Assembly (NCBI GenBank): GCA_028875655.1
Contig: JAPPCX010000121.1
Span: forward strand, 1 to 51,041
DNA: 51,041 nucleotides
Direction: 5' to 3'
DNA from: Chloroflexota bacterium
Lineage (GTDB): Bacteria > Chloroflexota > Dehalococcoidia > Lucifugimonadales > UBA3495
Of the stretch, positions 4,447 to 18,085 are shown piece after piece; the first letter of the stretch is position 1, and each line of letters begins with the position of its first letter. A program made the translations under genes and the position numbers. A model generated the notes under the pieces. The model was given only the letters and a program-made list of their open reading frames with translations. It was not told the origin of the DNA and ran no database searches.

Positions 4447-6498
4447 CTACTTGAAGTGCACCAGGGCCGGCATTCCTGACGCGCTCTGGAGTCCGCCCCA
4501 GGTTTCGGTGTAAGGGTAATCAACGCGGCCACTGCGGAATGCTTCAACCAGGGGAGTATCGAACAGCACTACGTAGGGCAGGTCTTCCGCCAGAAATACC
4601 TGCATCTCAAAAACCTGTTGACGCGCCGCTTCCAGGTCCGTTTCCGCCAGCAGCTGGTCGGCCAGCCGGTCAAACTCCGGGTTGTTGTATCCGCCCGGGT
4701 TGTGGCCTTCCAATCCCGAATGACGGCTGTGGAAGAACGACTCCAGGTAGTCGGGGTATGCGGTCAACTTCCACCCCAGGATCCACATATCGAAGTCCTG
4801 CCGGGTGAACACCTTGTCCACGATCAGGTTGAATCCGGTCAGGTCGGCCCGCACGGGAATGCCAACCTCGTTCAGCCACCGCTCAATCCAGATGGCGAAG
4901 GTGGAGCGCAGCGGATCGTAGCCCGGGCTGGGCGCCAGGATTTCCATGGCCGGCATCGGCTCGCCGTTGGGCATTTTCAGCCCCTCGCCCGCCTGCTCCA
5001 CGAACCTGCCGTCCTCGCTGATGCGAGGCTCCGTCTCCCAGGTGAACCCGGCGTCTTTCATCAATTGCACGGCCTGGCTGATGCGCTCGCCCCGGCTCAA
5101 ACCCTTGCCGATCAGCGGCACGTCGGGGTTGTACCAGGCGCGGTTGCCCTCAGGCACGGTCGTGTACATGGGCAAGGCTACGCCCTGCAAAACGGTGCTG
5201 GTCAGGAACTCCTTGTCGATCAGCGTTGCCACCGCCTGCCGGAACGCCTTGTTGCCCATGGGTTCCTTGCGGAAGTTGAAACTGAGATAGCGCATGCCGT
5301 CTGAGGCGTTTTCAATTACCGCCAGCCCGTCCTCTCCCTCAATCTGTTCCTGCAATCCCCGGGAAAGGCCCAGGGGATTCAGCATGAAGTCGATGTCGCC
5401 CTTTTTCAGCGCCAGCACCGTGGCGTCCTGGCTGCCGTAGATTGAATAGATCGCGCTGTCGGCGTAGGGCCCCACCGTGTACTCCAGCGTCTTGTCGCCG
5501 CCCGGTTCGCCGTATGCCGCAAACTCGTAGGCCCCCGGCTTGGATTCGGCATACGCGCCGTTGGCGTACTGGGCCACCACGCTGTCGGTGAAGTAGTAGT
5601 CGGGGTTGAGTTCCTTTTCCGCGAACGCGCCGCGCTCCCACTTGACGAACCCGAAGCCTCCGCCGGTGGGTTCGCGCTCGGGAACGTGGGCGTACAGCGC
5701 CTTCTGCTGCTCAACAATTTCGCCGGCCTGTTTCGCCTCGGCCACGATGGGCTCCCAATAGGCTCTCGGGAAGATGGGCATGAAGGCCATTCCGAACTGC
5801 CAGCGCGCCAGGCCCGGCTCCTGCTTGAAGTAGATCTTGAGCCGGTGGGAGTCCAGCGCCTCCGCATGGTCGAAGTATTCGGGATCGACTATGGACGGCC
5901 AGTTGCCGGAAAGCTCCAGGTCAGCGACCGTATGCGCGGTGAAGACGAAATCCTCGGCGGTAACCTCGTTGCCGTCGCTCCACTTCACCCCCTGCTTCAG
6001 GGGAACCTCGGTAGTCCAGAGGGTCTCGCCGCCTACGGTTTCCTCCGCCAGGGGCGTCGGGAAATCGGACGCCAGCGACGGCACCCAGTCATAACGCTGT
6101 GCCGAGTACGAGTAGAGGGAAGGCTTGCTGCCGCCCAGCACGTACAGGTTCCAAATCGTGCCGTCCGGCCCCAGGTACGCCCAGTAGTTGGTCGTGGTCA
6201 TGTCCGCCGAAATGCCAAGTTGGTAAACGTTTTCGGTCGCATCGGTGGTTGTGGGCGCTGCCGACGTTGTTGCAGCCGGTTGCGGTGTCGCCGCGGCCGT
6301 TTGCTGGCCCGGCGTCGGATCAGGAGCCTGGCCGGATGTTTGCCCGGTTTGGGCGGATCCTCCGGGCCCGGGCGTGGCCGTGACCACTACCTCCACCTCG
6401 CGAACCACTTCTTCCCGGACCACTTCCGGGGTACATCCCAACAGCGCAAACAGGCACAAAGTCAGGATACAGACTGCTAACCATCCGGCAGGGCGCAT
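4447..6498 (-). CDS. ABC transporter solute-binding lipoprotein, family 5 (peptide/nickel type)
   Basis: Extracytoplasmic receptor of the importer, 683 residues. The ATG at 6498 is preferred over the ATG at 6504 because AGGAGG (complement of 6506-6511) is 7 nt from the former and only 1 nt from the latter. A lipoprotein signal peptide ends in LLGC, so Cys22 would be lipid-anchored. A Gln/Thr/Pro/Ala-rich tether (about residues 23-85) leads into the SBP_bac_5 domain, with recognisable segments such as LKQGVKWSDGNEVTAEDFVF, FRQAVATLIDKEFL and FDMWILGWKL. It is the first gene of the operon and is divergent from the PP2C gene. Ligand cannot be read from sequence; the operon layout fits di/oligopeptides or a similar small organic solute. 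Confidence 0.93.
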   Translation of the reverse strand: MRPAGWLAVCILTLCLFALLGCTPEVVREEVVREVEVVVTATPGPGGSAQTGQTSGQAPDPTPGQQTAAATPQPAATTSAAPTTTDATENVYQLGISADMTTTNYWAYLGPDGTIWNLYVLGGSKPSLYSYSAQRYDWVPSLASDFPTPLAEETVGGETLWTTEVPLKQGVKWSDGNEVTAEDFVFTAHTVADLELSGNWPSIVDPEYFDHAEALDSHRLKIYFKQEPGLARWQFGMAFMPIFPRAYWEPIVAEAKQAGEIVEQQKALYAHVPEREPTGGGFGFVKWERGAFAEKELNPDYYFTDSVVAQYANGAYAESKPGAYEFAAYGEPGGDKTLEYTVGPYADSAIYSIYGSQDATVLALKKGDIDFMLNPLGLSRGLQEQIEGEDGLAVIENASDGMRYLSFNFRKEPMGNKAFRQAVATLIDKEFLTSTVLQGVALPMYTTVPEGNRAWYNPDVPLIGKGLSRGERISQAVQLMKDAGFTWETEPRISEDGRFVEQAGEGLKMPNGEPMPAMEILAPSPGYDPLRSTFAIWIERWLNEVGIPVRADLTGFNLIVDKVFTRQDFDMWILGWKLTAYPDYLESFFHSRHSGLEGHNPGGYNNPEFDRLADQLLAETDLEAARQQVFEMQVFLAEDLPYVVLFDTPLVEAFRSGRVDYPYTETWGGLQSASGMPALVHFK

Positions 6499-6601
6499 AT
6501 TCATTCCTCCTGGGGCAATACTGGGAACCTATCACGACAACCCAATCGGCGCAAGAAAGCGTACTTGCGCGCGCCATTGACCTATCGTCCTCGCGCCCAT
6601 T

Positions 6602-6630
6602 CTATTTGCTATGGACGCATGGCGTATAAT
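6602..6630 (+). promoter_or_regulatory. Probable promoter of the PP2C/vWA/kinase cassette
   Basis: A perfect -10 TATAAT lies at 6625-6630. At 17-bp spacing the -35 position (6602-6607) reads CTATTT, which is poor, so an activator or alternative recognition is possible. The leader to the PP2C ATG would be about 44 nt and contains GGGAGG just before the start. Confidence 0.5.
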
Positions 6631-6680: not shown

Positions 6681-7472
6681 ATGTTTGGCAAACACCGCTG
6701 GCGCATCGCAACGGCAACTGCTTCGGGCAGTTCGCACCTGAGGGATGCTCTCCCCAACCAGGATGCGGTGGCCTGCCGCCTGCTTGAAGTCGGCATCGGC
6801 GAAATCGTAGTGGCCGCCGTCGCCGACGGGGCCGGCTCCGCCCCCCGTTCCGACGAGGGTTCCCGTATTGCCGCGGACGCCGCCGTGGCCGCGATTGTTG
6901 ACAGCATTAACCGGCAGCCGGCGGCGGCCTTTGGCGAGCGCCTGGCCGAGTCCTTGGCGCGCCACGCCGTCAAGCAGGCCAGAATCGCGGTAGAGCGTTA
7001 CGGCCTCCGACATAACGTCCCGGTCCGGGAACTGGCTTCCACCCTCATAGTTGCCTTCGCCAGCGATGCCCTCGTAACCGCCGCGCAGGTTGGCGACGGG
7101 GCCGTAATCGCCTTCAACATTGGCAGCGGTGAGGCCAAAACCCTGTGCGCCGCTCACACCGGCGAGTACGCCAACGAGACTACCTTCATCACTTCCCACT
7201 CCGAGCCGGACCGGATAGCCGACGTGGGCCATGCCTCCGGCTATGAATACGATGCCTTGGCGCTGATCACCGACGGGTTGCAGAACCTGGCTCTCAAGAT
7301 GCCGGAGCGGGAGGCCTTCCTGGGCTTCTGGAACCCGATGCTGAACGACCTGGCCCACACCGATGAACCGGAAGCCGTTCCCGAAAGGCTGCACGCCTTC
7401 ATCAGCGGCGAGCGGGTGCAGTCCCGCACCAGCGACGACGTGACCATCGCCATTGCTGTCCGCGCTGGCTGA
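6681..7472 (+). CDS. PP2C-family Ser/Thr protein phosphatase
   Basis: Predicted cytoplasmic metal-dependent phosphatase, 263 residues, no signal peptide. The PP2C metal-site residues are present in order: NQD (Asp28), ADGAGS (Asp49-Gly50), QVGDG (Asp139), LITDG (Asp198) and TSDD (252-253). This short form with ADGAGSA is the type found beside vWA proteins and kinases in TerY-P-like operons (family knowledge). GGGAGG lies 4-5 nt before the ATG. It is the first gene of a same-strand run with two vWA genes, a TM2 protein and a kinase, so its natural target is probably the kinase or the vWA proteins (inference). Confidence 0.88.
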   Translation: MFGKHRWRIATATASGSSHLRDALPNQDAVACRLLEVGIGEIVVAAVADGAGSAPRSDEGSRIAADAAVAAIVDSINRQPAAAFGERLAESLARHAVKQARIAVERYGLRHNVPVRELASTLIVAFASDALVTAAQVGDGAVIAFNIGSGEAKTLCAAHTGEYANETTFITSHSEPDRIADVGHASGYEYDALALITDGLQNLALKMPEREAFLGFWNPMLNDLAHTDEPEAVPERLHAFISGERVQSRTSDDVTIAIAVRAG

Positions 7473-7491
7473 AACCGGGAGAAAATCAGCA

Positions 7492-8388
7492 ATGACCATC
7501 CGCGACACCATCGGCGTGTACGACCAGTCGGAATTCGCCGACAACCCTGAAGCGCGATGCTCCATCGTCCTGATTCTCGACGTGTCCGAATCCATGGCCG
7601 GCGCCAAGATCGACACCGTGAACCGGGCTCTGGTCAAGTTCCGCGACATCATAAGGGAAGACTCCGTTACCGCCTTGCGGGCCGACGTAGCGTTAGTCGA
7701 GTTCAACCACGAAGCCCGGGTGGCGCTCGACTTTACCAACGGCACGGATTTCGAGGCGCCGGTCCTCTCAGTAGCCGGCGGAACGAATTACTCACAGTCC
7801 GTCAACATGGCGCTGGACCTCATCGAGGCGCGTAAGCGGAGCTACCGGGACGGCGGCATCGCCTATTACCGCAGCCTGGCCTATTTCCTCACCGACGGCA
7901 TTCCGACCGACGACGATGCCGATAGTTTGGCCCGGACGGCCCGGCGCCTGATCGCCGCCGAGGAAAATCGCAGCGTTGCATTCTTCTCTTTTATGATAAG
8001 CGACGGCGGCGGCATTCCCGACTTTTTGATTGATGCCGACACAGTTGAACAGTTTTTGAGGGTGGTCGGCCTCAGCTACGCGGAATTGTCTGCGGCGGGC
8101 GCATTTGGGGACGGTACAGAGGGCGCGAGGGGTCTCAATTTGGGCCGGGTCGCCGAACTTGCCGATACCGGCGTGCCGGAACTCATGGAGCGGTGCGTCA
8201 GCGCCGGCGTCATGCGCACCGCGGTGGGCGAACTCACCAGGCTGGCGCCCCGTCCCCCGGTCGAATTGACCGACATGGCGCAACTGGACGGCTCCATTCA
8301 ATGGCTGTCCCGATCAGTGGCCGCCGTGTCCCAGTCCCAGCCCGGCGAGAGCATCCGCCTGCCCCGGCCTGATTACCTGAATTTCTAA
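7492..8388 (+). CDS. vWA-domain protein, TerY-like, with a large C-terminal-half insertion
   Basis: 298 residues from the ATG at 7492 (GGGAG upstream); the upstream extension of the frame reads into the PP2C gene and is rejected. A full MIDAS metal site is visible: DVSES (DxSxS), the Thr of GGTNYS and the Asp of LTDG. It is a close paralogue of the next gene: the first ~165 residues and the last ~45 (ending GSIQWLSRSVAAVSQSQ...) align well. Between the strand FFSFMI and LAPR this copy carries about 80 extra residues that the other lacks, and the frame stays open through them. Role by context: a metal-dependent scaffold or adaptor for the phosphatase/kinase pair. The insertion could form a separate binding module. 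Confidence 0.85.
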   Translation: MTIRDTIGVYDQSEFADNPEARCSIVLILDVSESMAGAKIDTVNRALVKFRDIIREDSVTALRADVALVEFNHEARVALDFTNGTDFEAPVLSVAGGTNYSQSVNMALDLIEARKRSYRDGGIAYYRSLAYFLTDGIPTDDDADSLARTARRLIAAEENRSVAFFSFMISDGGGIPDFLIDADTVEQFLRVVGLSYAELSAAGAFGDGTEGARGLNLGRVAELADTGVPELMERCVSAGVMRTAVGELTRLAPRPPVELTDMAQLDGSIQWLSRSVAAVSQSQPGESIRLPRPDYLNF

Positions 8389-8420
8389 GCCCTGAATTTC
8401 AATGATAAGGAGGACCAGCA

Positions 8421-9116
8421 ATGAGCATACAAGACACCGTAGGCGTATATGACCAAGCCGAATTCGCCGAAAACCCTGAGGCCCGGTGTTCCATCGTCCT
8501 GATCCTGGATGTGTCCGGCTCCATGGGCGGCCTCAAAATGCAGACCGTGAACCAGGCCCTGGTCAAGTTCGGTGAGATCATCAAGGAGGACTCGGTGACC
8601 GCGCTGCGGGCCGACGTGGCCATCATCGAGTTCGACCACGATGCCCGGGTGGTGCAGGACTTCACCAACGGCACCGACTTTGAGCCGCCCACGCTGTCCG
8701 TCAAAGGAGGCACCAACTACTCCAAGGCCGTCAACCTGGCCCTGGACATTACCGAAGCTCGCAAACAGAGCTACCGGGACGGCGGCATCGCCTATTACCG
8801 CAGCCTGGCCTACTTCCTCAGCGACGGCTACCCGGAACACGACGACGCCGGCGAACTGACCAAAGCCGCAGACCGCCTGAAAGCGGCGGAGGAGAGCCGC
8901 GGCATCGCCTTCTTCTGCTTCGGCATCGGATCGCCGGACCTGCCGGTCGATATGTCGGCCCTCAACGAGCTGGCGCCCAGGGCAGCCATCGAGCTGACCA
9001 ACATGGAACAGCTGGAGGGTTCCATTCAGTGGCTGTCCCGCTCCGTGGCCGCCGTGTCCCAGTCCCAGCCCGGCGAGGCCATCCGCCTGCCAGAACCGGA
9101 CTACCTGGATTTTTAG
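8421..9116 (+). CDS. vWA-domain protein, TerY-like (compact paralogue)
   Basis: 231 residues, with AAGGAGG about 7 nt before the ATG. MIDAS residues are intact: DVSGS, Thr in GGTNYS and Asp in LSDG. It is the size of typical TerY proteins and is the likely ancestral form of the tandem pair, the upstream copy being the expanded one. The conserved tail SIQWLSRSVAAVSQSQPGE is nearly identical in both, suggesting a shared partner. It lies 32 bp after the first vWA gene and is probably co-transcribed. TerY-like proteins are known from tellurite/stress (Ter) systems, but no terD/terC-type gene is present here. Confidence 0.88.
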   Translation: MSIQDTVGVYDQAEFAENPEARCSIVLILDVSGSMGGLKMQTVNQALVKFGEIIKEDSVTALRADVAIIEFDHDARVVQDFTNGTDFEPPTLSVKGGTNYSKAVNLALDITEARKQSYRDGGIAYYRSLAYFLSDGYPEHDDAGELTKAADRLKAAEESRGIAFFCFGIGSPDLPVDMSALNELAPRAAIELTNMEQLEGSIQWLSRSVAAVSQSQPGEAIRLPEPDYLDF

Positions 9117-9167
9117 GCAACTGACAGTACGCGCGCGATAACGGCGGCGTCTCAAGGAGGGCAAGCG

Positions 9168-9260
9168 ATGTCTTGTTTTGTCATGCTGACGCAAGCAGCA
9201 AGCGGCGCAGCTAAAGCAGTCCGTCTTCTTGAAGCTGCGACATCCAACAAGCATGAGTGA
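9168..9260 (+). CDS. Possible small protein, 30 residues
   Basis: Reading frame starting MSCFVMLTQAASGAAKAV and ending ...TSNKHE. It is preceded by one of the best Shine-Dalgarno sequences in the window (AAGGAGG, 7 nt before the ATG). It sits alone in the 200-bp gap between the second vWA gene and the TM2 gene and has no recognisable domain. It could be a genuine small protein, a leader peptide controlling the downstream genes, or the stub of a decayed gene whose ribosome binding site survives. Confidence 0.4.
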   Translation: MSCFVMLTQAASGAAKAVRLLEAATSNKHE

Positions 9261-9316
9261 ACGCTGGGATCCGGAGACCATTTAATTTCTTGAACCGGTA
9301 GGCAAGGGTGTCGGCA

Positions 9317-9958
9317 ATGTTCCCAGCAGGTCCAAAGAATAGAACAACCGCCGCTCATCTGGCGATGTTTGTGGGTTGGATCGGGCTTCATAAGTTTTAT
9401 CTTGGCTACCGGAATGTCGGATTGACCCACATTGCCCTGACCGTGGTTGGGCTGGTGGTATTTCTTGCCATGTGGACCGCGGGCGACCGGGGCAGCGTCA
9501 TCGTAGTTCAGGTAGCGGCGTGGGTAGCCATCCTTCTCGGCTACTTCTACGTCCGGAGGTTCCATTTTGGCGACGCCGTGGCCGAGATAATAAGCCCCGG
9601 CCGGCTGTTGCTCTGGCCCTGGCGATTGATCCGTTACACCTTCGGCCTGGCCGGGGCAGGAGCTAACATGATGGAGGAAGAAGCGCATCAGCAGCGATGG
9701 CGCCGTCGCAGACGACGAGATGACGACGATGGCGGCTGTCTCTCAGCGGGATGTATCGTGATGGCGTTGGGGATACTCCTGTCACTGGCCGTTGTGGCGG
9801 CGATCTTGTTCTTGTACTACCTTATATTCTCCTTGATTGGCTTCATTGCCCTCGCCGCCTCCGTTGCGATTGAGGCGATTGAAGGCGTCATCTACTTGCG
9901 CAAGACCGACACGGAATTTCAGAATGAATACGTCGTTGGTCAGAGACTGTGGTTCTAG
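9317..9958 (+). CDS. TM2-domain membrane protein with the domain split by an insertion
   Basis: 213 residues from the ATG at 9317 (AAGGG upstream; a GTG at 9308 is an alternative). The N-terminal part has the TM2 signature WIGLHKFYLGYRNVGLTHIA (about 21-40). The usual C-terminal end of a TM2 domain, EGVIYLRKTDTEFQNEY, appears only near residues 189-205. In ordinary TM2 proteins these parts are a few tens of residues apart; here about 140 residues intervene, with extra membrane segments and a charged linker (RRRRRRDDDD). It is located between the vWA genes and the kinase, so it may be the membrane partner of the cassette (inference). Confidence 0.75.
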   Translation: MFPAGPKNRTTAAHLAMFVGWIGLHKFYLGYRNVGLTHIALTVVGLVVFLAMWTAGDRGSVIVVQVAAWVAILLGYFYVRRFHFGDAVAEIISPGRLLLWPWRLIRYTFGLAGAGANMMEEEAHQQRWRRRRRRDDDDGGCLSAGCIVMALGILLSLAVVAAILFLYYLIFSLIGFIALAASVAIEAIEGVIYLRKTDTEFQNEYVVGQRLWF

Positions 9959-9970
9959 CCAGGGCATCCC

Positions 9971-12379
9971 ATGACTTCCCCGACAAATCCGCTCGCCGGT
10001 CGCCGCTTTGAAGACGAAAGCGGCAACCCCATCGTGCCGGGCCAAAAGCTGGGCGAAGGCGGCGAGGGGGTGGTGCACCTGGTGGACGGGGACCCCGGCT
10101 CGGTAGTGAAAATCTGGCATCCGGGCCGGACGCCCCAGGACGCCGACGCCAAAATCAGCCACCTGGTGAGCAACCCGGTGACGCCTGGGCTGGGCGTCAC
10201 CTGGCACATCACCTGGCCTCAGCACGAAGTCCGGGAGAGCGGAATCATCGTCGGCTATACCATGCCCACGCTCAACCCCGGCGAATCCTGGGAACCCATT
10301 GTTGAATACTACAACCGACGGGCGGCGCAGGGCACCGGGGCCGCGCAAGCCCGCGAGATCCAGATTGACGACCGGGTGCGCATGGCGCGCAACCTGGCCC
10401 TGGGCTTTCGCGCCGTTCACGACGCCGGCTACGTCATCGGCGACGTCAACGAGAAGAACGTTGAGGTCAACCGGCAGAACGACATCGCCATGGTGGACTG
10501 CGATTCCTACGGGTTCACCGACTCCGCCACCGGACGCACCTTTTCCAACGGCATGGGGCGCCCCGAGTTCCAGGCCCCGGAGGTCCAGGGCGACTACGCC
10601 AACCGCACCCAAAACCATGACCGTTTCGGCCTGGCCGTGGTCATCTTCCACCTGCTCACGGGCTACCATCCCTACACCGTCACCAATCGGCCCAACGTCA
10701 CGCTGCCCGGCGACCGGATCAGCGCCTGGCTGTTTCCGCCGGCAGATCCCGGCCTCAACGCCCCCAGCTCCTACAACGACGCCTGGGATGGGTTGACTGC
10801 CAAGCAGAAGCAGCTGTTTCTGCGCTGCTTCGACCGGGCGCACAAAGATGATCCTCGGCCCACGCCGGAGGAGTGGGTGGAAGCCCTGCTGGAATTGCCG
10901 TCAGTCCCCGCGCCGGCACCGTCACCATCACGGACTCCATCGCCTTCACCGGCCCCGGGGCCGCAGCCGCGGCGCTATTACAGGCCCCCCGGCGCCTCAG
11001 GCGAGAACTGGCTCTATTGGGGGCTGGCGGTGGCCGGCTACGGGGCGCTGATGCCCCTCATGCTATTCAGCCAGTTTCGGCCTTTCTGGTGGCTGTCGCT
11101 GATCCTGGTGGCGGGGGCGTTATTCTATCTTCCGGTTCGGAGGCTGCTCGAATCTCCCATCACCAGGACACGCTGGATCGTGATCGTCGTCGCGTCGTTG
11201 TTCAGCGTCTGGTTCTTGATGGGATTGGTCGGAGCGGCCATATCGGTCTGGCCCTGGTGGTTGTGGCTGGGGTTAGGCATCGGCGCGGCGTTTATCCTGG
11301 GGGTTCCGGCCAGGGGGTGGTTACTCGGACTGATCCGCAGTCCCAACGCCCTGCAACGCTGGATTGCCATCGGCGGGGTGTCTCTGCTCGGCCTCTTCGT
11401 CCTGGTCGGCATGGGGTCTGCGGTCTTCAGGGAATGGGAGGGTTGGCGTTTTGAAAGGCAGTTCCAAGAGGCGAGCAACGCTGCCACCGCCATCCCCGTT
11501 GTCGCCGTGGTAGAACCCACTGACACGCCCGTGCCCACCGACACCCCGTTGCCGCCGCCAACGGATACCCCCACGCTTACGGCCACACCTCCGCCAACTC
11601 CTACCCAAACTCCGGCGCCAACGGCTACTCCAATACCGACACCCGTTCTGGTCGTTGCGCCGCCTACTCCGGTTCCCGTTTTGACCGTGCTGCCGGCAAC
11701 GGCAAATCCAGGGCAAACCGTTACCGTGAAGTTGACCGGATTCCCCCCGTACACGCTGGTGCACGACGTTAGCATCCAGGGCCTTGATATTCTGGGAGAT
11801 CGGACTATCAATACCGACGCGAACGGCGACGCCCTGATTGATGACATCGAAGTTCCGCTCATCATGGACGCCGGCTTTTACGGTGTCTCAGCTACCGTAG
11901 GCGGCATGTCCGCCGTGGTTGGCGATCTGGCGGTCATCGCTATCCCGCCCACCCCAACACCTCCGCCCTACCCCGACCCGGTATTGCTGGCGCAGCGTGG
12001 CGCGCCGCCCGGCCACCTATCCCGCGCGCCAGGCGTCGGTCAATACGTCTCCGGTTGCTTCGTAGGCGACCAAGCCCGGCAGCAATACTGGGTGTACCTG
12101 GCCGACCGGCCCAGCGATACGTTGGAAGGCGCGAGCCACACGATACTGCTGGATTTCAGCAAAACTATCCCCAGGGAAGAACTGCGGGAAGTCTTTCCTG
12201 GGGAGTGCTATTACGTAGGCCCCGTAACCTATCAGACTGACGAATCCGTGGGCCGCTGTCCCGGCACTGTGTACGATACGGCTTGCAGCAGCGACGATAT
12301 GCATTCCACCAGCTTCCGAGTGTACGTCACCGAAGGGACGTTGCGCGAGATTACCGAAGTGCCCCGGTTCGGCAACTGA
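9971..12379 (+). CDS. Transmembrane Ser/Thr protein-kinase-like protein with Thr/Pro-rich ectodomain
   Basis: 802 residues. The N-terminal cytoplasmic kinase domain (about 20-310) has GEGGEGVV (Gly-rich loop, 28-35), Lys47 in VVKIW, catalytic loop GDVNEKN (Asp158, Asn163), metal-binding VDCDS (Asp176), APEV (202-205) and DRFGLAVVIFHLLTG. The GDxNxxN and DCDS forms match the atypical kinases associated with TerY/PP2C partners rather than classical HRD/DFG kinases. After a Pro/Ser linker come about five membrane helices (roughly 347-366, 372-390, 402-425, 428-446, 464-485). These place the C-terminus outside: a Thr/Pro repeat tether (about 515-570), an Ig-like module beginning NPGQTVTVKLTGFPPY, a second Pro stretch and a terminal domain with four Cys. 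Likely role: sensing outside and phosphorylating inside, opposed by the PP2C enzyme. Confidence 0.87.
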   Translation: MTSPTNPLAGRRFEDESGNPIVPGQKLGEGGEGVVHLVDGDPGSVVKIWHPGRTPQDADAKISHLVSNPVTPGLGVTWHITWPQHEVRESGIIVGYTMPTLNPGESWEPIVEYYNRRAAQGTGAAQAREIQIDDRVRMARNLALGFRAVHDAGYVIGDVNEKNVEVNRQNDIAMVDCDSYGFTDSATGRTFSNGMGRPEFQAPEVQGDYANRTQNHDRFGLAVVIFHLLTGYHPYTVTNRPNVTLPGDRISAWLFPPADPGLNAPSSYNDAWDGLTAKQKQLFLRCFDRAHKDDPRPTPEEWVEALLELPSVPAPAPSPSRTPSPSPAPGPQPRRYYRPPGASGENWLYWGLAVAGYGALMPLMLFSQFRPFWWLSLILVAGALFYLPVRRLLESPITRTRWIVIVVASLFSVWFLMGLVGAAISVWPWWLWLGLGIGAAFILGVPARGWLLGLIRSPNALQRWIAIGGVSLLGLFVLVGMGSAVFREWEGWRFERQFQEASNAATAIPVVAVVEPTDTPVPTDTPLPPPTDTPTLTATPPPTPTQTPAPTATPIPTPVLVVAPPTPVPVLTVLPATANPGQTVTVKLTGFPPYTLVHDVSIQGLDILGDRTINTDANGDALIDDIEVPLIMDAGFYGVSATVGGMSAVVGDLAVIAIPPTPTPPPYPDPVLLAQRGAPPGHLSRAPGVGQYVSGCFVGDQARQQYWVYLADRPSDTLEGASHTILLDFSKTIPREELREVFPGECYYVGPVTYQTDESVGRCPGTVYDTACSSDDMHSTSFRVYVTEGTLREITEVPRFGN

Positions 12380-12385
12380 CCTGCG

Positions 12386-13315
12386 CTAGACGGGACCGCC
12401 GCCGGCATAGGGTTTGAGAGCGGCGTAGATCACATCGTTGATGGGAGTGGAAACGCCGGCGGACTCGCCGGCCCGAACCACGGCGCCGTTCAGGGTTTCC
12501 AGCTCCATGGGCCGGCCGGCCATCAGGTCGGCGTGCATGGAGGAACGCATGGCGGCCCCGCCCTCTTCGATGTAATGCAGGGTATCCGGCACGATGCCCT
12601 GGGCCAGATCAACGCCGGCGGCGCGGCCGGTCCGCTCGATCTCCTCCATACAGCCGACGATGATCTTGCGCCATTCGGGTCGGGGTAGCAGGTCGTTGAT
12701 GTACTCACGAGCCAGCGAGGTGGTTCCGGCCATGGTGGCGATGAACAGGAACTTGGTCCAAAGCGTGACAGCAATATCCTCGGAGGCTTCGGCGGGCACG
12801 CCGGCGGCTCGGAAAGCGGCGCAGATTTCCGTCGCGCGTTGGCTGTGAGAGGGATCGGCGCCGCGCACGGGGCCGGTGACGATGCGAACAACTTGGCCGG
12901 ATTGACGAACGACGCCGAGACCGGTGCGACTGGCCTCTATGTAAGCTGCGCCGGGCAGCACCGTAGCGTCGGGAAAGGCGTCCAGCAAGGGTTGGTAGGA
13001 ATCGATACCGTTCTGCAGGCAGAGGACGGCGGTGTCCGGGCCGACCATGGGAGCCATTGCCGGCACGGCGTCGGCGTTGTGGTAGGTCTTGGTGGTGAGC
13101 AGGACCAGGTCCACGGAGCCGACCTCTGCCGGGTCGTCGGTGGCAGAGCAGGACACTACGAACTCGCCGGCCTCGGTTTGCATCCGCAAGCCATCCCTGC
13201 GGATCGTGTCCAGATGCTCACCACGGGCAATGAGGGTTACCTCGTGGCCATCGCGGGCCAGCATGCCGCCGAAGTATCCGCCGATGCTGCCGGCTCCCAT
13301 AACTGCTGCTTTCAT
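12386..13315 (-). CDS. Ketopantoate reductase family (ApbA/PanE-like) oxidoreductase
   Basis: 309 residues from the ATG at 13315 (a TTG at 13327 is an alternative; no clear Shine-Dalgarno). The N-terminal Rossmann motif GAGSIGGYFGGML and the C-terminal helical domain identify the family, which reduces 2-dehydropantoate with NADPH in pantothenate synthesis. The catalytic-Lys helix is present (LWTKFLFIATMAG), but the substrate-binding Asn expected four residues after the Lys is Ile. It may therefore act on another 2-keto acid. The gene ends 6 bp from the converging kinase gene. Confidence 0.8.
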   Translation of the reverse strand: MKAAVMGAGSIGGYFGGMLARDGHEVTLIARGEHLDTIRRDGLRMQTEAGEFVVSCSATDDPAEVGSVDLVLLTTKTYHNADAVPAMAPMVGPDTAVLCLQNGIDSYQPLLDAFPDATVLPGAAYIEASRTGLGVVRQSGQVVRIVTGPVRGADPSHSQRATEICAAFRAAGVPAEASEDIAVTLWTKFLFIATMAGTTSLAREYINDLLPRPEWRKIIVGCMEEIERTGRAAGVDLAQGIVPDTLHYIEEGGAAMRSSMHADLMAGRPMELETLNGAVVRAGESAGVSTPINDVIYAALKPYAGGGPV

Positions 13316-13330
13316 GCGGTTATCCAATGC

Positions 13331-15545: not shown

Positions 15546-17159
15546 CTAACGGTAACCCGTAGGTGGGGTTACATCGTGAAAAATGGAGTATTGCGAGATC
15601 AGTGCGTCCTCGTCCTCAACCTTGCCCCACAGCATTACTGTGTACACGCCACTGCCGTTTTTTCGGAGAACATCGCTGAGGTCCGCCCGCACGGCAAACG
15701 ATGCTCCGGTGGAGTTTACTTCCTTTGCCGTAATCCAGGGAACATAAATTACCTGTGGCGACCGCTGTTCGCTGGAATTGTATGCTTCCTGCCAAAGCCG
15801 ATGAGCTTCGTTAGGAGATCGCGCTGCCGGCGCATCAGTCGGAACATCGTAGGGGTTGGGGCAGGGATTGTAGGTAATGCTGAACTCGTGTGTGTTGTAG
15901 CGCCAGCCTCCAGTCAGGGGCTTTCGCAAGCCGGCTACCGGCCGTCCGTTATCGTAGCAGTAGGTTCGCGCTACCTGTCCGCGCGTTAGCGTGTGGGGCG
16001 GTGGATCATAATAGATCATCTGGCCCGTATCGGCGTTGAATCGTGCGCCATTCCTGGTTTTGCCTGAAAAGGATAAGACTCCATCCACGATTGACGGCAA
16101 ACGATCATATTCAACGTAGTCGCCCTCAAAGTGCTGGTACATTAGCGTGTTGTATTTATCCCAGGCAAGGCCGATGTTGACCTTCTTGTGGCTAAGATCA
16201 AGCAGGTTGCGACGATGGCCGGGGCTTCTCATCCATCCAGCCATCGTCTCGTCAATTTCGCGTCTGATAGTATCCTTTGCGGCGTAGCCGTCAGAGGCTT
16301 TGATGCAGTAATCCAGCCCACTCCCATTTTCGCCGTTAGACTGGTAGCCGCCGGCCAGGCTGTAGCGCATATAAGGCTTCAAGCCATCAACGCCCCAGTG
16401 GGATGAAAAACAGTTGTCCAGCGCGGCTTCAGCGTGCAGCTGGGCGGCGATGTTGTCGCCCAGGACAACCGCGCCAACTCCCGCCTTCTTGCGCTCGGCA
16501 TTGATAAGGGAGAGCATATAGCGCTTTTCTTCAAGGTGCCGCAAATCCGGGGATATGGCGAGCGCCGGCTGCGGAGTGGCGGTTGGAACGGGAGTTTGGG
16601 TTGGTAAAGGTGTAGCGGTCGGCATCGGAGAGCCGGTCGGCGTTGGTTGCGGCGTTGCAAGGGTTGAAGCCATCGCCGCTGCCACCAACTCAGGGAACAC
16701 GCCCCCGCAGTAACGTTCTACCAGCGTCCGAACATCCGCCACAGTCTGGCGTCCTTCCTCAATGGCGGAATTAGCAGCCCAGAACCGATGCTCCCTGTCC
16801 CGTCCCGAATACTGCCCGTCGCATTCGGCAAAAGCGTTGACCACAATTTCCCGTTCGGTGGGCGGAATTGTCGTGGGAGTTGGCGTCGGATGCGGTGTCA
16901 CTGTTGACGTTGGTGTTGGAGGTGGGGCCGGCGTATCGGTCGGGTAAGGTGTCGTCGTCGGCAGTGGCGTTTCAGTGGGAGGCGGCTCCGGTGTGGGAGT
17001 CAGGGTTGGCGACGGTTCCGGCGCGGGGGTTGTGGGGGTTGCGGAACGTACGGATACTTCCACATCCACTGGGTTGCGGTCCAAGTACAGCATGGCCGCG
17101 TACACAACGCCGCCTCCCACGATGGCGGCAATCACTATGACGACCAGTGTACGCGCCAT
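15546..17159 (-). CDS. Membrane-anchored CAP/SCP (PR-1-like) domain protein
   Basis: 537 residues. The ATG at 17159 gives an N-terminal membrane anchor (MARTLVVIVIAAIVGGGVVY); the open frame upstream to 17501 is antisense to the neighbouring oxidoreductase and is rejected. Two Thr/Pro-rich tethers (about 40-105 and 185-225) flank a small Cys-containing segment. The CAP domain follows: LINAERKKAGV, then an LHAEAALDNC stretch, NGENG and GWMRSPGHRRNLLD. CAP domains occur in secreted bacterial proteins of mostly unknown function. The tether style (TPTPEPPPTETP) is typical of Chloroflexota surface proteins. The start lies 2 bp after the stop of the LLM gene, so the two are probably co-transcribed. 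Confidence 0.85.
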   Translation of the reverse strand: MARTLVVIVIAAIVGGGVVYAAMLYLDRNPVDVEVSVRSATPTTPAPEPSPTLTPTPEPPPTETPLPTTTPYPTDTPAPPPTPTSTVTPHPTPTPTTIPPTEREIVVNAFAECDGQYSGRDREHRFWAANSAIEEGRQTVADVRTLVERYCGGVFPELVAAAMASTLATPQPTPTGSPMPTATPLPTQTPVPTATPQPALAISPDLRHLEEKRYMLSLINAERKKAGVGAVVLGDNIAAQLHAEAALDNCFSSHWGVDGLKPYMRYSLAGGYQSNGENGSGLDYCIKASDGYAAKDTIRREIDETMAGWMRSPGHRRNLLDLSHKKVNIGLAWDKYNTLMYQHFEGDYVEYDRLPSIVDGVLSFSGKTRNGARFNADTGQMIYYDPPPHTLTRGQVARTYCYDNGRPVAGLRKPLTGGWRYNTHEFSITYNPCPNPYDVPTDAPAARSPNEAHRLWQEAYNSSEQRSPQVIYVPWITAKEVNSTGASFAVRADLSDVLRKNGSGVYTVMLWGKVEDEDALISQYSIFHDVTPPTGYR

Positions 17160-17161
17160 TC

Positions 17162-18085
17162 CTACGAGCCGGCATCTACCCTGGGCAGTACTTCCTGCGT
17201 CAGCACGTCGATGGTGTCCAGCAGTTGTTGCAGGCTGCCGCACTCGTGGCAGTTGAGCTGGAACTCCTCCAGCTCGGCCTCCTGCCGGTAGCGGTTCATG
17301 TCCGACGCAATCTGCTCCGGCGTCCCCAGGCCCGGCGGCCGGTCGCTCCCCGGGGCGGAGACTCCGGTTATGCCGCTTACTATGATCCGGAAACTCATGC
17401 GGGTGCGCGGCGGCGTTTCGCGTCCGATCTCTGCTGAGTAATCGCGCAGGTACGCCTGGTTGCTGATCAGGTCGGCCAAGGGCGTGGGCGTGGGCTGCCA
17501 CACTTCGGCGAAACGGGCCGCCCGCCGCAGGGAGGCGTGGCTGGACCCGCCCACCCAGATGGGCGGGTGAGGCTGCTGCACCGGCTTGGGGCTGACGTGC
17601 ATATCGTCAAAGGAGAAAAACCGCCCGTGAAAGCTCACCGGGTCGGGTTCCCAGCACGCTTTCCAGAGCCGCAGGTACTCATTGGTGCGCGCGCCACGCT
17701 CCCCGTGGGGCACTCCCAGCGCGGCGTACTCGGCCTCGTTCCAGCCGGCTCCGACGCCGACGATGGCCCTGCCGTCGGAAAGCTGGTCCAGGGTCGCCAC
17801 CATCTTGGCGGTAACGACGGGGTTGCGATAGGGCATGATGAGCACCGAGGTGCCCAACCGAATCCGGTCGGTGCGCGCTGCTACGTAGGCTAGGGTCATC
17901 AGTGGATCGTACACGTTGCGCCACGGCTCGCTGCGCGGCGAATCGTCAACGATCACGTGGTCGTTCACGAACAGGGCGTCGAACCCGGCGTCTTCGGCTT
18001 TGAGGGCGGTTTCCAGAATGGCTTTCGTGGAAGCCGGGAAACCCAGGTAGTCGGCGTTGGGGAGTCGGAAGGAACACTGAACCAT
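17162..18085 (-). CDS. LLM-class (luciferase-like) flavin/F420-dependent oxidoreductase
   Basis: 307 residues from the ATG at 18085, where AAGGTG is 8 nt upstream; an upstream in-frame extension lacks support. The protein is a TIM-barrel luciferase-like enzyme: FRLPNADYLGF at the N-terminus, DALFVNDH, IRLGTSVLIMPYRNPV, GRAIVGVGAGWNEAEY and HPPIWVGGSSHASLRRAA. The GWNxxEY and IWVGG segments are family hallmarks of F420- or FMN-dependent members. The substrate is unknown. It is divergent from the acylase gene across an 82-bp spacer. Confidence 0.88.
   Translation of the reverse strand: MVQCSFRLPNADYLGFPASTKAILETALKAEDAGFDALFVNDHVIVDDSPRSEPWRNVYDPLMTLAYVAARTDRIRLGTSVLIMPYRNPVVTAKMVATLDQLSDGRAIVGVGAGWNEAEYAALGVPHGERGARTNEYLRLWKACWEPDPVSFHGRFFSFDDMHVSPKPVQQPHPPIWVGGSSHASLRRAARFAEVWQPTPTPLADLISNQAYLRDYSAEIGRETPPRTRMSFRIIVSGITGVSAPGSDRPPGLGTPEQIASDMNRYRQEAELEEFQLNCHECGSLQQLLDTIDVLTQEVLPRVDAGS

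Follow-up and report, generated by a model that had tools for sequence, protein, structure and literature searches.

The window, a stretch of 51,041 nucleotides from a Chloroflexota bacterium, contains a cassette of five forward-strand genes, which encode a PP2C-type phosphatase, two vWA proteins (vWA1 and vWA2), a TM2-domain membrane protein and a Ser/Thr kinase, in that order. The three core proteins are homologous to YegL (vWA), PphC (phosphatase) and YegI (kinase) of E. coli (BLASTP of the relatives' proteins; alignment A1). Judged by its sequence, the cassette is a YegL-PphC-YegI triad and not a novel membrane departure from the TerY-P system. It probably works as a reversible Ser/Thr phosphorylation switch in which the kinase acts on itself and on the vWA proteins, the phosphatase resets it, vWA2 is the core copy and the TM2 protein is an accessory. 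The window corresponds to contig C95 in a genome of 3.4 Mb, and its closest named relatives are MAGs of the Chloroflexota/Dehalococcoidia, some of which may come from sponges.

The intergenic spacings across the cassette are, from 5' to 3', 19, 32, 191 and 12 nt, and opposite-strand genes border it on both sides. From their sequence we take these to encode a peptide-transporter binding protein (4447-6504) and an ApbA-like reductase (12386-13327). An earlier note on this DNA had described a same-strand series of PP2C, vWA, vWA, TM2 and kinase genes behind one TATAAT. Pfam matches and coordinates place all five genes as described. The TATAAT is also present, and relatives have a similar -10-like box, unchanged in the closest one (TATAAT in L075) and degenerate in two others (TATAGT in L076, TATACT in L074), but a consensus scan found no -35 element that would complete a sigma-70 pair with it. 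The five genes may be co-transcribed. A gene for a CAP-domain protein (PF00188) with a long Thr/Pro-rich linker lies at 15546-17501 on the reverse strand, and its true start is probably downstream of the listed one.

Table 1. Features of the cassette, with positions in the window.
Feature	Position	Strand	Evidence or remark
TATAAT -10-like box	6625-6630	+	upstream of cassette
PP2C-type Ser/Thr phosphatase, 263 aa, PphC (YegK) homologue	6681-7472	+	PF13672
vWA1, YegL-like	7492-8388	+	PF00092, 1.6e-9
vWA2, YegL-like, slow-evolving copy	8421-9116	+	PF00092, 6e-13
Gap, 191 nt, with 30-codon frame at 9168-9260	9117-9307	.	vWA3 position in relatives
TM2-domain membrane protein, 216 aa	9308-9958	+	PF05154, 2e-9
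Kinase, whole gene	9971-12379	+	Pkinase, 4.5e-8 (Pfam)
Cytoplasmic kinase domain, YegI kind, residues 1-311	9971-10903	+	alignments A1, A2; AlphaFold2
Five predicted transmembrane helices, residues 348-482	11012-11416	+	hydrophobicity scan; AlphaFold2
Predicted extracytoplasmic all-beta domain, residues about 570-655, after Pro/Thr linker	11678-11935	+	AlphaFold2
C-terminal cysteine-containing domain of kinase	11939-12376	+	alignment A3; relatives' sequences

The yegL, pphC and yegI genes lie side by side in E. coli K-12. YegI is reported to be an inner-membrane Ser/Thr kinase that phosphorylates itself and from which PphC removes the phosphate (PMC13232886). The window likewise encodes a YegI-like kinase, a PphC-like PP2C and a YegL-like vWA together, and its kinase is predicted to lie in the membrane, with five helices. 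The two kinases share the GDVN/DxDS style of motif, and the vWA proteins share NPExRC, the MIDAS and a C-terminal WLSxS...VSxS motif. Unlike the E. coli locus, the window cassette begins with the PP2C gene and has a second vWA gene and a TM2 gene in addition, and its kinase differs from YegI in the five helices, a large predicted outside region and the lack of CPWC after the kinase domain. The triad is also found in cyanobacterial, proteobacterial and planctomycete loci (L079-L152), where the kinase domain is usually followed by at least one hydrophobic stretch; these loci differ from the window in their vWA-PP2C-kinase order, usually single vWA gene, CxxC that is mostly present and lack of TM2. 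The sequence suggests that the window kinase may also autophosphorylate and be dephosphorylated by its PP2C.

The kinase family was surveyed in 80 named loci from Cyanobacteriota, Pseudomonadota, Planctomycetota, Verrucomicrobiota, Armatimonadota, Chloroflexota and others, and neighbours were counted in those 70 for which 3 kb or more of upstream sequence was available. The earlier note's reading depended on the genes staying together in relatives. The vWA, PP2C and kinase genes do so, since both partners lie beside the kinase in 61/70 loci; the TM2 gene does not beyond the genus. Behind the kinase domain, 76 of the 80 kinases have one or more hydrophobic stretches, a count that is an upper estimate because the simple hydrophobicity scan counts some Pro/Ala-rich stretches. 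With YegI also reported from the inner membrane, a membrane kinase is the usual form of this family, so the special membrane sensor version that had been proposed is not a novelty. For this location of YegI, PMC13232886 cites Rajagopalan and Dworkin 2020. Outside the lineage, most family members have about one helix in the kinase tail. The closest relatives have the PP2C gene first and one to three vWA genes, and their kinases have five helices except in L077 and L170 (one helix). CxxC after the kinase domain is missing from the window and its closest relatives and present in 72 of the 80 family tails. The features particular to this lineage are the leading position of the PP2C gene, the presence of one to three vWA paralogues, a kinase with five helices and no CxxC, exchangeable predicted-outside ends and TM2.

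TerY-P triads also bring together a vWA protein, a PP2C and a Ser/Thr kinase, and CoCoNuT type III-A operons are reported to carry duplicated vWA genes too (PMC11090510). In the strict form of TerY-P a zinc ribbon is fused to the C-terminus of the kinase and the vWA protein is of the TerY kind. The window differs in both respects: no zinc-ribbon-like motif is present, with no CxxC after the kinase domain, and its vWA is nearer to YegL than to TerY. Plasmid proteins annotated as TerY-C match vWA2 at 26-30% identity (E 1e-7 to 4e-12) and the L032 protein that corresponds to vWA2 is 36% identical to YegL (E 3.6e-37), E-values that are not directly comparable because the former are database-wide and the latter comes from a small database. 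No restriction or ter genes adjoin the cassette, and the whole genome has no match to the terD family (PF02342), in agreement with the earlier remark that ter genes are missing. The description "TerY-P-like" fits in the broad sense of a triad kept across phyla; the closest family is YegL/PphC/YegI instead of TerY. Pfam found no PASTA repeats in the kinase, and the full-length Stk1 model of NCBIfam scores 17.8 against a cut-off of 450.

The PP2C protein matches PP2C_2 (PF13672) with an E-value of 7e-41 in Pfam, and its counterparts in L032-L035 match both the window protein and E. coli pphC by BLASTP. The metal-site motifs NQDA, DGAG, GDG, TDG and SDD can be read in its sequence, and the enzyme appears intact. 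The kinase also reads as catalytically intact. Its Lys47, Asp158, Asn163 and Asp176 are kept and are invariant or nearly so in the family alignments, and its kinase domain is modelled by AlphaFold2 with a pLDDT of about 90 and matches protein-kinase folds in the PDB. It departs from the Hanks motifs in having GDVN for HRD, DCD for DFG and an invariant Lys61.

Behind the kinase domain the hydrophobicity scan predicts helices at residues 348-366, 371-389, 402-420, 426-444 and 464-482, and AlphaFold2 likewise builds five helices in residues 346-505, the number given in the earlier note. The arginine-rich loops between the helices fall on the predicted inside, and in this topology the C-terminal region would lie outside the membrane. 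The strands of the all-beta domain form a block with a pLDDT of about 76-90. An outside domain had been claimed before; its fold is now predicted, and its outside location is a topology prediction. Stretches resembling this domain are found by BLASTP in large ORFs near the L034 and L035 cassettes. The last domain of the kinase is of two types, one in the window, L073, L075, L076, L171 and L172 and the other in L074, L077 and L170, and these types do not track kinase-domain similarity. An OB-fold, suggested by eye for this cysteine domain, was dropped because the model was unusable (pLDDT 37). Another family of the order has a YegI-like kinase (L039:7545-10775) that is 33% identical to the window kinase in the kinase domain and 57% identical in the helix region (residues 346-507), which suggests domain exchange.

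The MIDAS (DxSxS..T..D) is intact in both vWA1, which is longer by about 66 residues, and vWA2, which has the C-terminal serine motif WLSRSVAAVSQS. Across 100 vWA proteins, the positions of Ser206, Ser208, Ser213 and Ser215 hold Ser or Thr in 96-100%, and the MIDAS is intact in 94. vWA2 and its L075 counterpart are 99% identical with a dN/dS of 0.027. For the same pair of loci dN/dS is about 0.03 for vWA2, 0.12 for the kinase domain, 0.25 for TM2 and 0.32 (0.32-0.33) for vWA1. Every gene of the cassette is under purifying selection, which is strongest on vWA2.

In a tree of vWA proteins vWA1, vWA2 and vWA3 form separate lines, with good support for the first two and moderate support for vWA3. 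Where the window has the 191-nt gap, the relatives L032/L075 and L076 hold a vWA3 gene, which was probably lost from the window. No similarity to vWA3 was detected in the gap, so it is synteny and the tree that point to the loss. The 30-codon frame in the gap is preceded by a Shine-Dalgarno-like GGAGGG and had been counted among the genes of the series. It finds no support, having no homologue in the syntenic relative L032 and lying at the vWA3 site. A dispersed-repeat origin of gap and frame was rejected because neither has copies elsewhere in the genome. In L074 a vWA3-type protein (L074:6347-7132) with a broken MIDAS (DSYAG) lies beside the intact vWA2 of the same cassette.

The TM2 protein contains a basic/acidic stretch and further hydrophobic helices in addition to its TM2 domain, and relatives suggest that it starts at the ATG at 9317. 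It is present at full length in 5 of the 14 genus genomes, always within this cassette and nowhere else in those genomes; its full-length homologues are found only in G138, G126, G499 and G504. The gene always lies between the vWA genes and the kinase gene, with one extra ORF before the kinase in G504. This ORF (L169:6213-7040, reverse strand) encodes an unrelated protein of 275 aa whose N-terminal residues are similar to those encoded at the start of the kinase gene. Between the window and L075, dS is 1.25 for TM2 and 0.26-0.51 for the neighbouring genes, a difference that hints at recombination. The otherwise similar cassettes of L073 and L077 have no TM2 gene, so the core function does not need it. 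A conserved partnership outside the genus was rejected, since the 393 genomes of the class gave just generic TM2 matches. The TM2 protein is a genus-limited accessory and not a core part, and its inclusion in the proposed sensor version is not upheld.

In the phosphorylation switch that we favour, the kinase would be anchored in the membrane, its catalytic domain facing the cytoplasm and a probable sensor domain facing outward. It would phosphorylate itself and the vWA proteins, and PP2C would take the phosphates off again. The vWA proteins would be metal-dependent binding or adaptor parts that relay the state of the switch to targets, with the phosphate probably carried by the serine cluster in their C-terminal segment. 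The motif conserved over 100 vWA proteins is a predicted phosphosite, although these serines could be structural instead, and no vWA protein of this family is known to be phosphorylated. vWA2 would be the core copy, with vWA1, and vWA3 in relatives, as diverging paralogues that add specificity, and the TM2 protein may be an accessory membrane partner at genus level. No signal, ligand or output gene for the cassette was found in this analysis. The little-studied triad spans many phyla and is represented in E. coli K-12. Natural tests are available in this lineage, which has a frozen and a drifting vWA copy and a membrane partner found only in the cassette. More speculatively, and with little expectation that it is right, TM2 and the five-helix kinase might form a membrane complex whose outside end is swapped from allele to allele, with a frozen vWA2 as the core and fast-evolving vWA paralogues as exchangeable subunits that confer specificity or act as decoys; if true, this would be a genus-level surface-signalling module.

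The cassette could instead be an anti-phage defence, in which a TerY-P-type triad senses infection and uses phosphorylation to switch a lethal or blocking response. Reports describe TerY-P triads that defend on their own against T7-like phages (PMC7699616) and TerY-P triads that accompany CoCoNuT restriction systems (PMC11090510), and the fast change of the vWA copies and predicted-outside ends would suit this role, as would a kinase present in 11 of the 14 genus genomes at differing locations. We nevertheless consider it rather unlikely. vWA1, vWA2, PP2C and TM2 have no match in PADLOC 2.0.0, which may not model every TerY-P variant, and the only models that the kinase matches are those that include a kinase, with the match confined to its kinase domain. 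The kinase lacks the TerY-P zinc ribbon and has extra domains predicted outside the cell. No nuclease or other effector gene adjoins the cassette, its immediate neighbours being transporter and reductase genes.

These neighbours favour neither defence nor a role in envelope regulation, where the outside domains would attach to material of the wall or surface layer and the switch would tune surface-protein or wall synthesis in the manner of a PASTA kinase. We regard the envelope role as quite unlikely, as no PASTA or other known wall-binding domain was detected and the single helix of most kinase tails elsewhere does not suit it. It would account for the predicted outside all-beta and cysteine domains and for the similar stretches in large ORFs near two cassettes. 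Genes for collagen-repeat and TIG-domain proteins lie 2-6 kb downstream in L074, with related ORFs near the L077 cassette, but none of this type was found beside the window cassette. That the kinase is silent, a membrane scaffold on which vWA binds metal and partners without phosphotransfer, is hardly credible to us. The atypical motifs in place of HRD and DFG are what such a scaffold might show, but the four residues listed above are conserved family-wide, the homologue YegI is reported to be active (PMC13232886) and an intact PP2C is retained next door.

The gene that adjoins the cassette varies: it encodes the binding protein in the window, L075 and L076, is glyA-like in L073, L074, L169 and L170, and encodes a glutamine synthetase in L077. 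No kinase of this kind was found at the search threshold in three of the 14 genus genomes, one of which is 86% complete. With its differing sites and patchy presence the cassette behaves like an accessory unit that retains its own set of genes. Fixed linkage to the binding-protein gene was rejected because G134 and G142 have this gene without an adjoining cassette; G130, G505 and G500 give weak matches to it only. G501 and G503 have a more distant triad (kinase 40% identical) near the same transporter genes. Probable exported surface-protein genes lie on the opposite strand near two of the cassettes (L074:11710-16927 and L077:13043-16871). In the window genome the search detected a single kinase of the YegI-like family. 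G134 and G142 contain a second, more distant vWA-PP2C-kinase triad (L043, L044) with four CxxC motifs in the kinase tail.
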